64,000 nt of DNA, from contig NZ_AP012273.1 of the NCBI RefSeq assembly GCF_000828615.1, positions 1,488,001 to 1,552,000 of the forward strand, given 5' to 3'. A program made the position numbers and the translations under genes. The notes under the pieces are model-generated. The model saw nothing but the letters and a program-made list of their open reading frames with translations, searched no databases and had not been told where the DNA came from. Position 1 is the stretch's first letter. Every line of letters begins with the position of its first letter. The stretch comes from Thiolapillus brandeum. Its GTDB lineage: Bacteria > Pseudomonadota > Gammaproteobacteria > Chromatiales > Chromatiaceae. This document shows positions 38,231 to 46,120 of this stretch, piece after piece.

Positions 38231-38555
38231 GAATTTATTTCTTCGTCACCATCCATCTGGATGGTCACCATCCGCTTGCCACATAGATGCTGTTGACGAA
38301 ACAGGATCGATTGCAGTCTTACATCCCGCCTGTTCGGTAACCGCCGACGCAGCTCTATCTGGTCAGCCTGTTTTGCCTTGAACTCATTGTGCAATCGCTG
38401 AACAGGTTCCTCCAACCAATCATTCAGTATCCGGTTTTCGGAGATTCCCCAGGATCGACAGAAAATAAATGCCAACTGAATCACACACACGGAGGTAAAG
38501 ATTCCTCCCTTCATGCCGAACAGTCTTTGTAAGGAAACTGAACAGGACTGTGACA

Positions 38556-39227
38556 ATGAAAAAACAATGCTTGATATACCCCTCATCCGGTAGGCAAAAA
38601 AGAGGGTTTGAACATCCGGAAACAGCCGTGCCTGCCGTCAATCGCGGGCTGGGTTTGGCAACGGTAGTACTTGTAGCCTTTATGGCCAGCGCCTGTGCAT
38701 CAAAAATACCGGCAAACCAGTGGACAAGGATTGCCGCAAGCCATTATCCCGGTATGACTGATATTCATCAGGAAGTAAATGTCATCGAGGGGATCTACAA
38801 TGGGGAGAAAATCTCTGGGTACATCGACCTGGACGATCGCTGGGTGGAGCTAAGCCGCCATCCGGTGGTGGCAGTGGATGCTGCAGAAGCGGGGCAGATC
38901 GCTGACGTACTGACCACCGGCGTTGGTCTGTCTCAGGGACTGGCTGAAGCCAACCCTTTGAGCGCTGGTATTCTCCCACTGAAATTCATACTGAATGACT
39001 ATGCCGAAAACCAGGGGATCAGGGAGTGTGGCCAGATAAAATCCTTTCTGTCAGCCGCGGGCTGGGGAGCTACGGCTGCCAATATCATTACCATATCCGC
39101 AGGTGCCTTCACTGGTGGAAGTGCTGCTGCGGGCCTGCTTGCGGGCACAGTGGCCTGGAATCAGTTTCCCGGAAAGGATGGCTGTACTGGCTGGGTGGGG
39201 CAGCCTGTGGAGTTGAGCACCCTTTGA
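38556..39227 (+). CDS. Putative membrane-associated lipoprotein, unknown function
   Basis: 223 aa from the ATG at 38556 (AAGGAAACTGAACAGG upstream). Hydrophobic LGLATVVLVAFMASAC resembles a lipoprotein signal with Cys near residue 48, but the preceding 30 residues are unusually long. The C-terminal half has ADVLTTGVGLSQGLAEANPLSAG and a Gly/Ala-rich hydrophobic end, resembling proteins with a D-x-x-T-T-x5-G-x-x-E-x-N-P motif such as DUF5658. The 325-nt gap before it holds no convincing gene; a short hairpin (ACCATCC/GGATGGT) lies at 38248-38265. Confidence 0.7.
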   Translation: MKKQCLIYPSSGRQKRGFEHPETAVPAVNRGLGLATVVLVAFMASACASKIPANQWTRIAASHYPGMTDIHQEVNVIEGIYNGEKISGYIDLDDRWVELSRHPVVAVDAAEAGQIADVLTTGVGLSQGLAEANPLSAGILPLKFILNDYAENQGIRECGQIKSFLSAAGWGATAANIITISAGAFTGGSAAAGLLAGTVAWNQFPGKDGCTGWVGQPVELSTL

Positions 39228-39434
39228 CAGGGTGTTTAGAAAGCCCTTCTTTATTACTCTGACCGGTATCACAATATACCGGCCAGACCTTTGACAGTAG
39301 CTTGACGTTCCTGCCGTTCGGGGCTGCATGACACTGAGGTTGACACGTTCCGGTGGGTCCGGGAGCGGATGAATGCCTGACTCTTCCAGGACAGTAAGGG
39401 GCAGGTTCCATCTTCCAAACAACTCACGCCGGCC

Positions 39435-39671
39435 ATGTACGAGAGCTTGTATGACAAGCTGAAAGGCCGGGCGGAGTGTGTGGCAATACAGGCGGCAGCC
39501 CCCTGAGCAGACGCTACCGGAAAAGACTACAAGGCCGAAATAGTCACAGTGAAGATCGACAAGGCCGCCATCAAGGGAGCCTTGAAAGAGGCAGATAGCT
39601 CAAAGTTCGACCTCCCGGGTCAGACTTTGAATGCGGTCGACGTCTATGGATTCCTCACCCGCCAGGGGTGA
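39435..39671 (+). pseudogene. ORF interrupted by one in-frame TGA
   Basis: A single reading frame runs from ATG 39435 to TGA 39669-39671, broken only by a TGA at 39504-39506. The first part reads MYESLYDKLKGRAECVA and the second KDYKAEIVTVKIDKAAIKGALKEADSS. Both look protein-like and stay in frame, so a nonsense mutation in a small gene is the simplest reading. The last 70 nt overlap the antitoxin remnant on the other strand. Function not recognised. 39228-39434 shows nothing else. Confidence 0.4.
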
Positions 39672-39840
39672 GCGGCGCGTGAAAGCGGCCAGGGATAGAC
39701 CGGTACCGGTCAGCCGCCCATATTGTTGCCGTGACAGAACGACCGCTGCCGGCTTGCGGTGCAGGGTGATTTCCCTGGGGATCTTCATTCCGTGCGTCCT
39801 CGATAACTTCCCTGAATATCTTACATAGCTTACTACAAGG
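39600..39840 (-). pseudogene. Phd/YefM-type antitoxin remnant, frameshifted
   Basis: The C-terminal part is intact in one frame: EITLHRKPAAVVLSRQQYGRLT, then RRSPLAGEESIDVDRIQSLTREVEL, the usual Phd-family ending. The expected N-terminal part (KIFREVIEDARNEDPQ) lies in a different frame, joined at a run of three G at 39773-39775 on the minus strand. Removal of one base restores a continuous protein. The very start is also degraded. No toxin gene follows. Confidence 0.6.
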
Positions 39841-40020
39841 TGAATCGCCCTTGCGCGAGAAAGGGTCCCTGGGGCATTCGCTGCGATCTTCGCCTTGTTC
39901 TTGAGCTCCTCAAACACAGATCTGCTCTATCAGAACTGATAGAGATGCCCTGAAGTAAGTGCCATTCTACTTCTGACTCCAAATGTGCAAATATAAGCTA
40001 GGAAACGTTGGAATTTATTG

Positions 40021-41865
40021 ATGAAGTATGGGAAGAGTATGAGCAAAGCGAATAAGAAAATTATCGATATTGAACCCTGTCCACCGGAGCGCCGGGCAGA
40101 GCGTGAACAATTTTGGAAAGAAAGCATGCTGCCTTATCTCAAATCCAAATGGGGGAGCGGTTTTATCTTTGAGGATGACCATGGCCCACGCGGGCCGGAA
40201 GTGTACCTTTTGTGGCGGCAGATCTTTGTCGAAGGTCGATACGGCCCGGTAGAGCCGGGCGTTGCCAGGCACGAGGAGGCGTGGAGGTATGCTAAAAGGG
40301 CCTATATAGATTTATTTTTGCTGACGCCGGTACAGAATCCTGCCTTCTGGGATGCTTTTTTCAATCGTTACCTACCCGTCAACGATATTACGCCTTTTTC
40401 GCCATCTGTCTATTCAGCAACGAATACCCGATCATTCCCCCTTTGCCCTTTCTTTGGTGATATGTATGGTGGGCTGGACCTGGTCAGACGATACAACTGG
40501 CGTTTGGAGGATGAAGTTGCCTGGTTCCGCCAGATCTATGGCGAGCGTTGGTCTCGCGTTATCGACCTGATGGGGCGTAAGCGTACAAATCCGTATGGTG
40601 CTTTGGAATCGTACGAACAACTGATCTGGCGATGGGTACAGACATTGGGCGGTAAGCATCCCGCAGACAATGTTTGGTTACATCTGTATGATTACTGGAA
40701 ATCCACGTTTGATCAATTTCACATCTATCCGCCTCGATGTGCAGATGCCAAAAGCCGGGCGGCCTATGATGAAAAATTGCGTCTGTTGAAAATCAATCAG
40801 TTCAAGCCCTGTAATCCGGATCCACGGGTGTATGAGGACGAACTTGAAGAAGAATATGGAGATGGCGATCTCACGCTCCTGTTTTATGCGCTGGCCTTTC
40901 CCGAAGAGACTGTGCGTTATCACATGCAAGAGCATGAGCGGATTTGGAATATTCGTAATCACTGCAAGGATGCGTTTCCCTGGCTGATTTACTATCCGCG
41001 ACAGCACATGACATACGAAGAAGTCATGGCGCAGCCTGCTTTGATAGCATTCCGTGGGAGGCTGATAGATGATCTGGAAAATGGTGATCTGCCACAGGGT
41101 ATGAAAGACCTTTGGCAGACCATCAAGGAAGACAAGACCGATCACTATGTCAAGCGAGCGTATCGGGAAAAGGATGAAGAGTATGCCAAAATGATGGCAA
41201 GCAAACGACCGGTGCCGGAAGAAGCTCTGCCTTGGGACAAGACGCGGGTCAAACAGTTTGGCGAGGCCATAGAACCCCTGCGGGCCATGGCCGCAGCGTA
41301 TGGAGTGACAGATATCAAAGCGCCGGTCAAGACCCTGAAACGGCTGGTGAATCTGTTATGGAATCGCCAACGCAAAGCCCGTTTCTTCGCAAACGACGAT
41401 GATCAGACCCTGGAAGACATTGCCGAGGCCGTATTGCTCGACGACGGTTATACAAAACCGGGTTTTGTCATGCCGGAGCAGATACTGCGTCTGGAATACC
41501 CGCCAATCGAAGCATTCGAATCCGATGACCCCAAAACCTACTATCGTGACGCCTGGCGCCAGATCGCCTCAATGGTCAGGCTGGAAAAAAAGAAAGTCGG
41601 TATCGTTTGTCGCAATGCCAAAGAACCGGATCAATGCACGGTCACGGTAAAAGTTGGCAAAAAATCCTACCGTTATCAGTATAGCCTTGAATATGAGGTA
41701 TTCGACGAACAACTGCTGCATGATATAGAAGACTTCGCCGCGAAGGAAAAGCTCAAATGGCGCTTTCATATCGACCGAGACGAAGACCAGGACGGCGTCA
41801 GCGATATGTTTGTGTTCTATCTGCCTGATGAGTTGGCGTCGCTGAGACATTTGGGGTCAGAGTAA
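40021..41865 (+). CDS. Orphan protein, unknown function
   Basis: 614 aa from the ATG at 40021; the ATG at 40039 (MSKANKKIIDIEPCPPERR) is an alternative. No signal peptide, membrane segment or domain that I recognise. It is rich in Trp, Tyr, Arg and Asp/Glu. The last 90 residues hold a short beta-rich stretch (KKSYRYQYSLEYEVF) and the loop DRDEDQDGVSDMF, which fits a D-x-D-x-D-G-x-x-D calcium-binding pattern. The final residues LGSE and the stop are encoded by the left arm of a palindromic repeat, so the original C-terminus may have been longer. It looks like a transferred gene. Confidence 0.75.
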   Translation: MKYGKSMSKANKKIIDIEPCPPERRAEREQFWKESMLPYLKSKWGSGFIFEDDHGPRGPEVYLLWRQIFVEGRYGPVEPGVARHEEAWRYAKRAYIDLFLLTPVQNPAFWDAFFNRYLPVNDITPFSPSVYSATNTRSFPLCPFFGDMYGGLDLVRRYNWRLEDEVAWFRQIYGERWSRVIDLMGRKRTNPYGALESYEQLIWRWVQTLGGKHPADNVWLHLYDYWKSTFDQFHIYPPRCADAKSRAAYDEKLRLLKINQFKPCNPDPRVYEDELEEEYGDGDLTLLFYALAFPEETVRYHMQEHERIWNIRNHCKDAFPWLIYYPRQHMTYEEVMAQPALIAFRGRLIDDLENGDLPQGMKDLWQTIKEDKTDHYVKRAYREKDEEYAKMMASKRPVPEEALPWDKTRVKQFGEAIEPLRAMAAAYGVTDIKAPVKTLKRLVNLLWNRQRKARFFANDDDQTLEDIAEAVLLDDGYTKPGFVMPEQILRLEYPPIEAFESDDPKTYYRDAWRQIASMVRLEKKKVGIVCRNAKEPDQCTVTVKVGKKSYRYQYSLEYEVFDEQLLHDIEDFAAKEKLKWRFHIDRDEDQDGVSDMFVFYLPDELASLRHLGSE

Positions 41866-41934
41866 AAACCTCTAAAAAAAGAGGGTCTGAGCCAAAACAG
41901 CGCACAGACAATGAGTTGTTACTCTGGCCCCAAC
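41851..41934. repeat. Palindromic repeat pair at the 3' end of the orphan gene
   Basis: TTGGGGTCAGAGTAAAAA (41851-41868) and GTTGTTACTCTGGCCCC (41915-41931) are inverted copies with two mismatches, enclosing about 46 nt. That enclosed stretch includes an internal ACCTCT/AGAGGGT hairpin. The left arm supplies the stop codon of the upstream gene. GGGTCAGAGT-type palindromes of this kind are often found beside REP-associated transposases in gammaproteobacteria, but no such gene is present here. Confidence 0.6.
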
Positions 41935-41988
41935 TATGATTCAGGGCATCACTCGGAATCTCCTGGGTATTTATGGGAAGATCGTACC

Positions 41989-42017
41989 ATAAAAAAGCCA
42001 GTTTTTACGCTGGCTTA
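41989..42017 (-). terminator. Intrinsic terminator of ssrA
   Basis: Read on the minus strand: AAGCCAG, an 8-nt loop, CTGGCTT and then a T-run, starting about 33 nt after the tmRNA 3' end. Confidence 0.85.
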
Positions 42018-42049
42018 TGGCTTCTGTTGGATCTTTATGGAAGGGTTGT

Positions 42050-42416
42050 TGGTGGAGGCGGGGGGAATCGAACCCCCGTCCGCGGATCCTCCGCCTTTGG
42101 CTCTACATGTTTAGTCCGGTCTATTAAAATTTAGCCGTTTACCACCCGACGGACAGGGCAGTATAACGACGAGTCCGGTAAGAGTTTAGCGAATCCACCC
42201 CGGACGAGCTTCATCGCGATTCTGTGAGAATCGACGCTTCGGTTCCGGACGCACAGACACGGCTCCGGTGAAGCGGCACCCTACCGTTTCTTAGGCGGCG
42301 AGTGCGTAGTTGTCGTCGTTGGCAACTATCAGTTTGCAGATGGATTAACGAGGGAATCTACATCCTCGACATGCACCTCGGGTTTTGCTATCCGCGTCGA
42401 AATCCGTGTCGCCCCC
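42050..42416 (-). ncRNA. ssrA: Transfer-messenger RNA (tmRNA)
   Basis: About 367 nt on the minus strand. The 5' end GGGGGCGACACGGATTTCGACG pairs with the 3' end CGCCTCCACCA to form the acceptor stem, and GGGGGTTCGATTCCCCC forms the T arm. The tag reading frame at 42323-42291 encodes ANDDNYALAA and then TAA, one residue different from the E. coli tag ANDENYALAA. tmRNA with SmpB rescues stalled ribosomes. The region 42417-42735 upstream of it contains no recognised gene. Confidence 0.97.
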
Positions 42417-43284: not shown

Positions 43285-44178
43285 TCATGAGTATGTCAGA
43301 GATTCCCTGAGGTTGTTCTGCAGCAATACGCCGGCCACGATGAACAGCAGGCCGATATAACTGGAGACCATGATTTCCTCGCCCACCACAAAATGGATGA
43401 GCACCAGGGACAGAAAGGGTGACAGGTAGATGAGATTGGCGATGCGCACGGTGCTGCGGGTGAGCTGTAGAGCTTTCAGCCAGAGCAGGAAGGTCAGCCC
43501 CATTTCAAACATTCCTACATACATGGCGGCTGCCAGGCCTCTTTGGTCGGGTAGGGAAAAGCCGTCCGTCAGCCACAAGGTCAACGCAATCAAGGGCAGG
43601 GCGAAAAGGAAGTTGCAAAACAGCCCCAGCACCGGATCCACGCGGCTCCAGGTTTGCCATATCCAATAGGCCGCCCATATGAGAGTGCTGCCCAGGGCCA
43701 GCAACACGCCGGGAGCGTTGCTGAACTCCAGACTCAGGGGATCTCCCCGGGTGGCAATGATGAGAACCCCGAAGTAGCTCAGGGCAATGGCGCCCAGTTG
43801 GCGCCTGCGCAGCCTGTGACCCAGCACGGGCACCGCCAGCAGTGACAGGGTGATGGCCCAGCTGTAATTGAGGGGTTGGGCTTCCTGGGCGGGTAACAGG
43901 TCATATGCCTTGAACAGCACCAGGTAGTAGAGCCAGGGGGTGAGTATCCCCGGCAGGCCCAGTTTCAGCAGGGAACCGGGAGGCAGCCACAGCAGATCCT
44001 TCAACTTGCCTTGCAGGACCAGCACCAATCCCAGGACGCATACGGATGTCAGGCTGGCCCAGAACAGGAGCTGAACCGGGGAAAGGTATCGCAGGGAGAG
44101 TTTGAATGCCGAAGCTACCGTGGACCACAGCAATACCGCTGCCAACCCCAGGAATAGCGCCCGGCGTTCATCGAACAC
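43285..44178 (-). CDS. EamA/DMT-family transporter
   Basis: 297 aa from a GTG at 44178, two bases after the stop of the M48 gene; longer in-frame extensions run into that gene and read as low-quality sequence. Ten hydrophobic helices in two repeated halves, with typical EamA blocks (LLWSTVASAFKLSLRYLSPVQLLFWASL and the C-terminal FVVGEEIMVSSYIGLLFIVAGVLLQN). Probably exports a small metabolite; the substrate is unknown. Tight spacing suggests translational coupling with the M48 gene. Confidence 0.88.
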   Translation of the reverse strand: MFDERRALFLGLAAVLLWSTVASAFKLSLRYLSPVQLLFWASLTSVCVLGLVLVLQGKLKDLLWLPPGSLLKLGLPGILTPWLYYLVLFKAYDLLPAQEAQPLNYSWAITLSLLAVPVLGHRLRRRQLGAIALSYFGVLIIATRGDPLSLEFSNAPGVLLALGSTLIWAAYWIWQTWSRVDPVLGLFCNFLFALPLIALTLWLTDGFSLPDQRGLAAAMYVGMFEMGLTFLLWLKALQLTRSTVRIANLIYLSPFLSLVLIHFVVGEEIMVSSYIGLLFIVAGVLLQNNLRESLTYS

Positions 44179-44179
44179 T

Positions 44180-46120
44180 TCAGCTGGGATCGGGAAGGGG
44201 TGGCAGGGGACAGTCCAGCAAGGCGGAAAATGCGCGCAGCAACTCCATTTCCAGGGCAGTGACTTCACCATCTGCCTCGACACAGGCGGCGGCAGCCTTG
44301 AGCAACTGGGGCTTGAGCAGGGGCTTGAGTTGGGCCAGCTTGTCCATGGCGGTATCCAGGTCTTCCAGGCGCAGGTCGGATTCATTCACAAGATGCATGC
44401 CTTCGATTTTCAGCTCCCTGGCGGCTGCCTCGAAAGCATGGAGTGCGTCCATCTTGCTCGCATGGGTGTGATGCGCCAGATAACTGAGCATGATGGCGAT
44501 TTCGTCCTTGAGTTTGGACAGGTGCTTGTAGCGGCCGATATGGGAGATACGGTGTTTGAAATGTGCTTCCAGGTGGCGCAGGATGAGGCGCTGAAGGGCC
44601 CACTCGAAAGCGGTGACCTGGCCGTCCATGTCAATAAGGATCTGCAGGTTCTCCTTGAACAACTCATACTGCTGCGGGGAAAGCTGTCGCAGGGCGGGCA
44701 TGGCCAGATCCACCAGGGTCAGGCGCAGTTTTGGCGCCAGTTTTTTCACCTGCTTCATGTGTTTTTCCGTGAGCATGGCAACGCCGGTGTCCGCCTTGTC
44801 CTGCAGGTGCCAGATCTGTTTCTCCAGCACTTCGTGGTCTTCGTCCAGTATCAGGGCATAGATGAGGGCACGGGCGCCGTGGGGTTCCTCTGCGGCTTCA
44901 CGCAGCTCACCGGGAATGTATTCGAGGACCCTGCGGGCTTCCTGGACACTGACGGTTTCAGGCACCTCGGTCTGGTTGATGTTGTCCAGCACGCTGCTGA
45001 GGATAACGCCTCCCATCATCATGTCCTGGGGGGTGACACGGGGTTGCTCCCTGGCATCCTCCTCCTTTTGAATCTCTGCAAGATCAGGTTTTTGCGGCAC
45101 CAGGAACTGTCCATCCCAGCTGGGTAGCACTTTGCGGATACGCTGTTCCAGGGGAGGGTGGGTGGCGAACAGGGAAGTGAACATGTGTCGGGTGCCTTCC
45201 CCAAAGTAGGCATGGCTCAGTTCTTCCGCGTCCGGATGGTTGATGATGGCACCCTGGGTATCGCCGCCGATCTTCATCAGGGCGCCGGCGATGCCCGTGG
45301 GATCCCGGGTAAACTGTACGGAAGAGGCATCGGCCAGGAACTCGCGCTGACGGCTCACGGCAGCCTTGATCAGATTGCCGAAGAACACCCCCACATAACC
45401 GAGAATGATCAACCCCAAGCCCAGCACTACCAGGGGTATGCCGTTATTCTCCTTGCTGTTTCGGCTGCCGCCAAGAGCGCCCCAGCGGAACAGCAGCCGG
45501 CCAATGAGGGCCACCATGAGAATGCCGAACAACAGGCCGATGAGACGGATGTTGAGACGCATGTCGCCATGGATGATATGGCTGAACTCGTGGGCGATGA
45601 CTCCCTGGAGTTCTGCGCGGTTGAGTTTTTCCAGGGTGCCCTGGGTTACGGCCACCACCGCATCTCCCGTGGTATAGCCCGCCGCAAAGGCGTTGATGCC
45701 CGGTTCATGCTCCATGACATAGACTTGCGGTACGGGCGTCCCCGAAGCTATGGCGATTTCCTCCACCACATTCACCAGGCGGCGTTCCAGGGGAGTGCGC
45801 GGGTTGCCTGATACCAGGCGCCCCCCCATCATCTCCGCCACGGTCTTGCCGCCGCCACGCAGGCTCAGGGTACGAATGCCGCTGCCTGCCAGTACCACCA
45901 CGATGACCCCCAGGCTGATGGCGGTGAAACGTGCCCAGTCGAATTTCTGCCAAAAGGTCATGGGCGTGTGATTCTGCACATAGTAGTCGTTGGAATACTC
46001 CACGAACAACATGATGAACAGGTTGGTCAGCACGACCAGGGATAAAATGGCAAGCACAAACAGGACGATCAACCAGCGCGTCTTGCGCCGGGCGTCGTCC
46101 TGGGCGGAGAAGAAATCCAT
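44180..46120 (-). CDS. M48 family membrane zinc metalloprotease with C-terminal extension
   Basis: 646 aa. Two N-terminal membrane helices (about 17-40 and 65-85). The catalytic zinc motif HEFSH is in VIAHEFSHIIHGD at about residue 178, followed by two more helices, and the third ligand region is FLADASSVQFTRDP. The C-terminal 300 residues are a helical cytosolic extension not found in HtpX. Proteins of this size lie beside lemA in many proteobacteria, as here (15 nt gap). Likely membrane protein quality control. Confidence 0.92.
   Translation of the reverse strand: MDFFSAQDDARRKTRWLIVLFVLAILSLVVLTNLFIMLFVEYSNDYYVQNHTPMTFWQKFDWARFTAISLGVIVVVLAGSGIRTLSLRGGGKTVAEMMGGRLVSGNPRTPLERRLVNVVEEIAIASGTPVPQVYVMEHEPGINAFAAGYTTGDAVVAVTQGTLEKLNRAELQGVIAHEFSHIIHGDMRLNIRLIGLLFGILMVALIGRLLFRWGALGGSRNSKENNGIPLVVLGLGLIILGYVGVFFGNLIKAAVSRQREFLADASSVQFTRDPTGIAGALMKIGGDTQGAIINHPDAEELSHAYFGEGTRHMFTSLFATHPPLEQRIRKVLPSWDGQFLVPQKPDLAEIQKEEDAREQPRVTPQDMMMGGVILSSVLDNINQTEVPETVSVQEARRVLEYIPGELREAAEEPHGARALIYALILDEDHEVLEKQIWHLQDKADTGVAMLTEKHMKQVKKLAPKLRLTLVDLAMPALRQLSPQQYELFKENLQILIDMDGQVTAFEWALQRLILRHLEAHFKHRISHIGRYKHLSKLKDEIAIMLSYLAHHTHASKMDALHAFEAAARELKIEGMHLVNESDLRLEDLDTAMDKLAQLKPLLKPQLLKAAAACVEADGEVTALEMELLRAFSALLDCPLPPLPDPS

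Follow-up and report, generated by a model that had tools for sequence, protein, structure and literature searches.

What is a 614-codon gene with no recognisable family doing beside ssrA in the chromosome of Thiolapillus brandeum, a deep-sea sulfur bacterium? The gene lies in a 64,000-nucleotide stretch of contig NZ_AP012273.1 (positions 1,488,001 to 1,552,000 of the forward strand; hereafter the window). A sequence-only reading of the window had described it as a large orphan without a recognised domain, lying alone in an accessory spot between decayed mobile DNA and ssrA, and had named it a good candidate for a new defence or effector function. The features discussed below are collected in Table 1.

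Table 1. Features at the orphan locus, in window coordinates
Feature	Position	Strand	Description	Basis
g38550	38550..39227	+	conserved left-flank gene, function unassigned; ends the fleN-fliA-SPOR gene block	same place in 6 relatives of the genus, at 61-80% identity
Degraded DNA left of the orphan	39228..40020		includes open fragments 39381-39503 and 39507-39668 (+)
Antitoxin gene remnant	39600..39917	-	Phd/YefM type	PF02604, E 0.011, 15.9 bits against a cut-off of 29.8
Orphan gene	40021..41865	+	protein-coding, 614 aa; no family, structure or sequence relative	ORF and codon-model scores
C-terminal stretch of the orphan	41521..41862	+	residues 501-614; predicted helix - three strands - helix - two strands	AlphaFold2, low confidence
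REPIN	41849..41938		inverted arms GGGGTCAGAGTAA (41853-41865) and near-complement (41919-41931)	hairpin, motif spread, RAYT flanking
ssrA (tmRNA)	42050..42416	-	right flank	ARAGORN and Rfam

The reading frame and its product

The orphan is a real coding gene. Its frame runs from an ATG at 40021 to a TAA at 41863-41865 (622 codons from stop to stop), with an in-frame TTG one codon upstream (40018) and a second ATG at 40039 as alternative starts. Across 300 base shuffles of the sequence, open runs reached at most 200 codons, compared with 614 in the real one. A codon model trained on nine neighbouring genes gave the orphan frame +0.20 bits per codon, against -0.02 to -0.62 for the remaining five; in 300-bp blocks the orphan frame was the best in every block, with one block close to zero. 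GC content by codon position (58/37/55%) was similar to that of the neighbours. The large open reading frame picked out by the sequence-only reading is thus confirmed as far beyond shuffle lengths, with a coding signature in its own frame only, and the gene is probably intact today. Neither a clear promoter nor a clear ribosome-binding site was apparent. The overall GC content is 50.0%, against 56.3% for the T. brandeum chromosome (PMC4136832). In GC and codon use the orphan is only mildly atypical for the window, several of whose flagellar genes lie at 50-53% GC.

The predicted product is an acidic protein (pI 5.8) of ~73 kDa. Its Trp and Tyr residues together make up 9.1% of the sequence, the highest value among the 52 window ORFs measured, in line with the aromatic richness first ascribed to it. 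The absence of a membrane sequence was also borne out, the 19-residue hydropathy maximum being 0.85. The segment DEDQDGVSD, previously noted near the C-terminus as a possible calcium loop, is indeed there; it occurs once, at residues 587-595, and fits D-x-D-x-D-G-x-x-D. Because this pattern arises in 0.27% of whole-protein shuffles of the orphan, the calcium role proposed for the segment is suggestive at most. Likeness to DxDxDG calcium loops (EF-hand-like, dockerin, thrombospondin type 3) consists of this one segment. Unlike the proteins that carry such loops, the orphan has a single-copy motif with no flanking helix-loop-helix predicted (in a poor model) and no Pfam match; it also lacks a membrane segment, and the sequence-only reading noted no signal sequence.

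Run on the single sequence, AlphaFold2 modelled the whole orphan with a mean pLDDT of 35.6 and residues 501-614 with one of 46.1. The two models share a mostly helical body and a C-terminal stretch of helix, three strands and helix; the model of residues 501-614 (pLDDT 46) places DEDQDGVSD in the turn between two further strands. Foldseek gave no match at E < 0.02 with either model, the C-terminal one being searched against PDB and BFVD. The scattered, unrelated folds that it returned are not interpretable at pLDDT 36 and 46. Structure prediction followed by Foldseek, which the sequence-only reading had proposed as a check, thus produced low-pLDDT models from which no known fold emerged; since single-sequence AlphaFold failed (pLDDT 36, and 46 for the C-terminal stretch), we claim no fold for the orphan.

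A search for relatives

Among everything searched, the orphan is specific to T. brandeum. Pfam, NCBIfam and PHROGs held no family for the whole protein at E up to 1, and when fragments of it were searched at E up to 10 nothing came near a curated cut-off; the sub-threshold matches that did appear (UbiD_N, TreT_GT1, TIGR04150 and phrog_10571) were judged to be chance. PADLOC profiles gave no match even at E = 10. With all four libraries silent, the description of the protein as an orphan without a recognised domain stands, and no nuclease, NTPase, protease or membrane part is recognisable in it by any profile library. PDB sequences likewise gave no match, nor did phage and plasmid records searched by tblastn at E up to 1.

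GTDB and IMG/VR contigs scanned with exact 8-residue patterns from the orphan, which reach close relatives only, gave no match. Two degenerate queries were also built from alignments of the orphan, in full or over a long stretch, with scrambled decoys in which chosen W/Y/F/G/P/C/D positions alone were preserved; the decoys are a pattern device and not relatives. Contig scans with these queries, two patterns each, found no relative of the orphan. Whole genomes were searched without profiles. The sets comprised 141 relatives, among them 14 of the genus, and 210 genomes from the order, 369 from the class, 399 from the phylum and 337 from another class. These sets overlap, and altogether they sample more than 1,000 Pseudomonadota genomes. 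The searches, which included the 14 other species of the genus, returned the window's own orphan and chance matches only. The weak matches were no more numerous than predicted by E <= 0.01 per genome, and those rejected comprised a FlgA-like protein (L002), a DNA topoisomerase I (L003), a GGDEF response regulator (L026) and two short matches with stop codons (L085 and L086). Throughout, 'no homologue' means none within the collections searched, at the sensitivities used.

The sequence-only reading had held that a clear match to a housekeeping family, or conservation at the same locus across the order, would speak against it; both were looked for and neither was found. Orphan status is itself common in this genome: the published chromosome (3,129,661 bp, accompanied by two plasmids) has 438 CDSs without significant database similarity (PMC4136832).

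The REPIN and the junction beside ssrA

The palindromic repeat that had been named among the neighbours of the orphan forms a hairpin (DNA fold z = -5.4). It belongs to a RAYT-linked repeat family, as a REPIN in the sense used by PMC3116915. This identification follows from the hairpin of inverted arms together with the motif pairs that flank RAYT genes. Of 274 genomes of the class, 29 contain the 15-mer TGGGGTCAGAGTAAA, in up to 15 copies, and none contains the reversed control. Many of the copies are inverted pairs; five of these, ~770-800 bases apart, enclose a RAYT gene (Y1_Tnp, PF01797; L078, L090, L091, L092 and L093), while at a sixth locus (L080) the RAYT adjoins a motif pair. The bracketed RAYTs are 55-72% identical to that of L078. 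The TGGGGTCAGAGTAAA family, RAYT-linked as it is, is thinly spread over many genera of the class.

The two inverted arms, the hairpin and the motif that brackets RAYTs in the class are shared with the REPINs of known RAYTs. T. brandeum differs from these in copy number and in its transposase-like gene. Its genome holds one two-arm copy, with one isolated arm at 3090745 and an incomplete match at 1757750, and dispersal of the REPIN in many copies was not found there; its intact Y1_Tnp gene is 39% identical to the L078 RAYT and has no motif beside it. T. brandeum thus retains one REPIN without a matching RAYT. The left arm encodes the last residues of the orphan, G-S-E, and its stop codon. The result is small but firm: the palindrome is explained, and a mobile repeat forms the last codons of the orphan. 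A half motif at 39254-39266, considered as a second REP bounding the orphan, was dropped, two-mismatch matches being present elsewhere in the window.

The 2.8-kb junction that holds the orphan (39228-42049) was seen in the T. brandeum genome only, and a DNA search of it against plasmids gave no match. On its left, the block fleN-fliA-SPOR gene-g38550 is kept across the genus; on its right, so is the block ssrA-g42736-(EamA gene)-htpX-lemA. ARAGORN and Rfam both support the ssrA neighbour named by the sequence-only reading (42050-42416, minus strand). The genes that follow g38550 are leuC and leuD in two relatives (G004 and G001) and hipA in a third (G009), and the window contains no match to leuB, leuC or leuD. 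In G009, moreover, a 130-kb contig (C9; L031 and L055) carries ssrA at one end and the flagellar-cluster gene g38550 at the other, whereas the two are 2.8 kb apart in T. brandeum, which points to chromosomal rearrangement at the g38550-ssrA junction.

Of the broken antitoxin reported to the left of the orphan, the fragment is there, and its family match is weak (PhdYeFM_antitox, E 0.011, below the curated cut-off); no toxin gene lies beside it. In G009 a hipA toxin-like gene (L055 4754-6040) occupies the place of the antitoxin debris and orphan of T. brandeum. The open fragments at 39381-39503 and 39507-39668 were identified by no tool. They adjoin each other and look like one decayed gene (39381-39668; MYESLYDKLKGRAECVAIQAAAP and ATGKDYKAEIVTVKIDKAAIKGALKE...), for which the one hint is a PHROG match, below threshold, to Mu Gam-like end protection (E 0.15).

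Alignments of genus members end at or a few bases from 42050, the 3' end of ssrA (~65 bases further in one relative), and the sequence beyond that end is different in every relative read. In G013 a tyrosine integrase gene stands directly beside ssrA (L028 9676-11016), followed by what looks like phage genes. The ssrA gene appears to be in active use as an attachment site within the genus. It is in general a preferred integration site of genomic islands (PMC4131195), and this preference, the variable ssrA 3' edge and the G013 integrase together support an element edge at this position. The accessory character first attributed to the spot is borne out by the genome-specific junction, the degraded DNA, the mobile palindromic repeat and the variable ssrA edge. 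Like the ORFan cargo of ssrA genomic islands, the orphan is a lone gene without relatives, has a GC content below that of the chromosome, is accompanied by mobile-DNA debris and adjoins the variable 3' end of ssrA. It differs from such cargo in that no integrase, attachment-site repeat or delimited island is left, and in that the junction may be a rearrangement. Specifically, the T. brandeum junction contains no integrase gene, and the 3' end of ssrA has no second copy in the window as a direct repeat and a single match genome-wide. An inverted repeat (I4, 39941-39954 / 41940-41953) was considered as a pair of element ends and dropped, one or two such 14-base pairs being expected by chance per 4.5 kb.

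What the orphan may be

We tentatively read the orphan as foreign, soluble, single-gene cargo, brought in by an integrative element that targeted the 3' end of ssrA and has since been mostly lost, and we give this reading close to an even chance. Unclassified cargo, or the remains of a lost element that targeted ssrA, is the description that fits best; it is plausible but unproven. The coding signal, the absence from 14 relatives in the genus and from every genome sampled in the family, order, class and phylum, the lowered GC content (50.0% against 56.3%), the continuation of the g38550 flank into leuC-leuD or hipA in relatives, and the RAYT-flanking repeat all argue for cargo. Against it are the lack of an ssrA 3' repeat in the window and of an integrase in the junction, the chance that the g38550-ssrA join is a rearrangement (compare G009), and GC and codon use that are only mildly atypical.

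On the cargo reading, the orphan would have arrived on a prophage or island with the ssrA 3' end as its attachment site, most of that element would later have decayed or been lost, and the REPIN, landing later at the 3' end of the gene, would now supply its stop codon. Our weakly held guess is that the product acts inside the cell as a stand-alone soluble cytosolic protein, in which a largely helical, aromatic-rich body might recognise a partner and a small C-terminal alpha/beta domain might carry an acidic, possibly metal-binding loop. A role in protecting the element or the host (anti-phage or anti-element) is possible, judging by the location and by the type of gene found at such sites; for a single large gene at an element site, such a role would be the commonest reason.

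The orphan could instead be a species-specific chromosomal gene, fast-diverging or new, that lies at a rearrangement breakpoint and whose relatives are lost or beyond detection; its role could then be in ordinary metabolism or regulation. The junction does resemble a breakpoint, with g38550 followed by leuCD in two relatives and no leuB/C/D in the window, codon use fits the neighbours, and the 438 chromosomal CDSs without any match provide ample company. However, the 14 other species of the genus show no trace of the gene, and a 614-residue protein this aromatic rarely arises de novo, which also counts against such an origin. We regard it as rather unlikely. A functionless neutral passenger, left over from a phage or island, still undecayed but with its last codons overwritten by the REPIN insertion, would account for the G-S-E-stop supplied by the REPIN arm, for the decayed DNA around the gene and for the lack of a clear promoter or ribosome-binding site. 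The long unbroken frame with its coding signature speaks against a passenger, as does the absence of relatives from phage collections and PHROGs, and we consider this account improbable.

The defence function put forward by the sequence-only reading would make the orphan a single-gene anti-phage or anti-element protein of an undescribed family, with a helical sensor and a C-terminal effector domain. Consistent with this, the gene is large, stands alone, encodes a soluble protein and lies among antitoxin debris at a site prone to elements, and large orphan genes at element attachment sites have been an earlier source of new defence and conflict proteins. The orphan resembles the single-gene anti-phage proteins covered by PADLOC in its size, solubility, stand-alone organisation and accessory location, but differs from them in matching no profile at any threshold and in lacking both a known effector domain and defence neighbours. 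PADLOC stayed silent up to E = 10, the flanking genes are flagellar and housekeeping ones, with no defence genes among them, and no nuclease, NTPase, protease or membrane part could be recognised in any profile library. Nor were there homologues whose neighbourhoods could be read, so the suggested comparison for defence-island association had nothing to work on. The billing as a good candidate for defence or effector function therefore did not hold up, and we think a defence protein of this kind a poor prospect. No test run here favours defence over an ordinary species-specific gene or a passenger. That the orphan founds both a new family and a new fold, as a stand-alone defence or conflict protein of ssrA-targeting elements in sulfur-oxidising gammaproteobacteria, is a long shot.

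Without a second sequence, the orphan adds one entry to the known pool of unexplained T. brandeum genes; it is nonetheless a clean, well-delimited case and a reasonable target for cloning.

Two further genes in the conserved block to the right of ssrA may be mentioned. Between g42736 and htpX there is an EamA-type transporter-like gene (window 43285-44385), which some genus members have (G003, G004, G008, G012 and G014) and others lack (G006, G009 and G011). Next to it, the HtpX-like M48 peptidase (window 44180-46120, 646 aa) has a long C-terminal extension and is conserved across the genus beside lemA.
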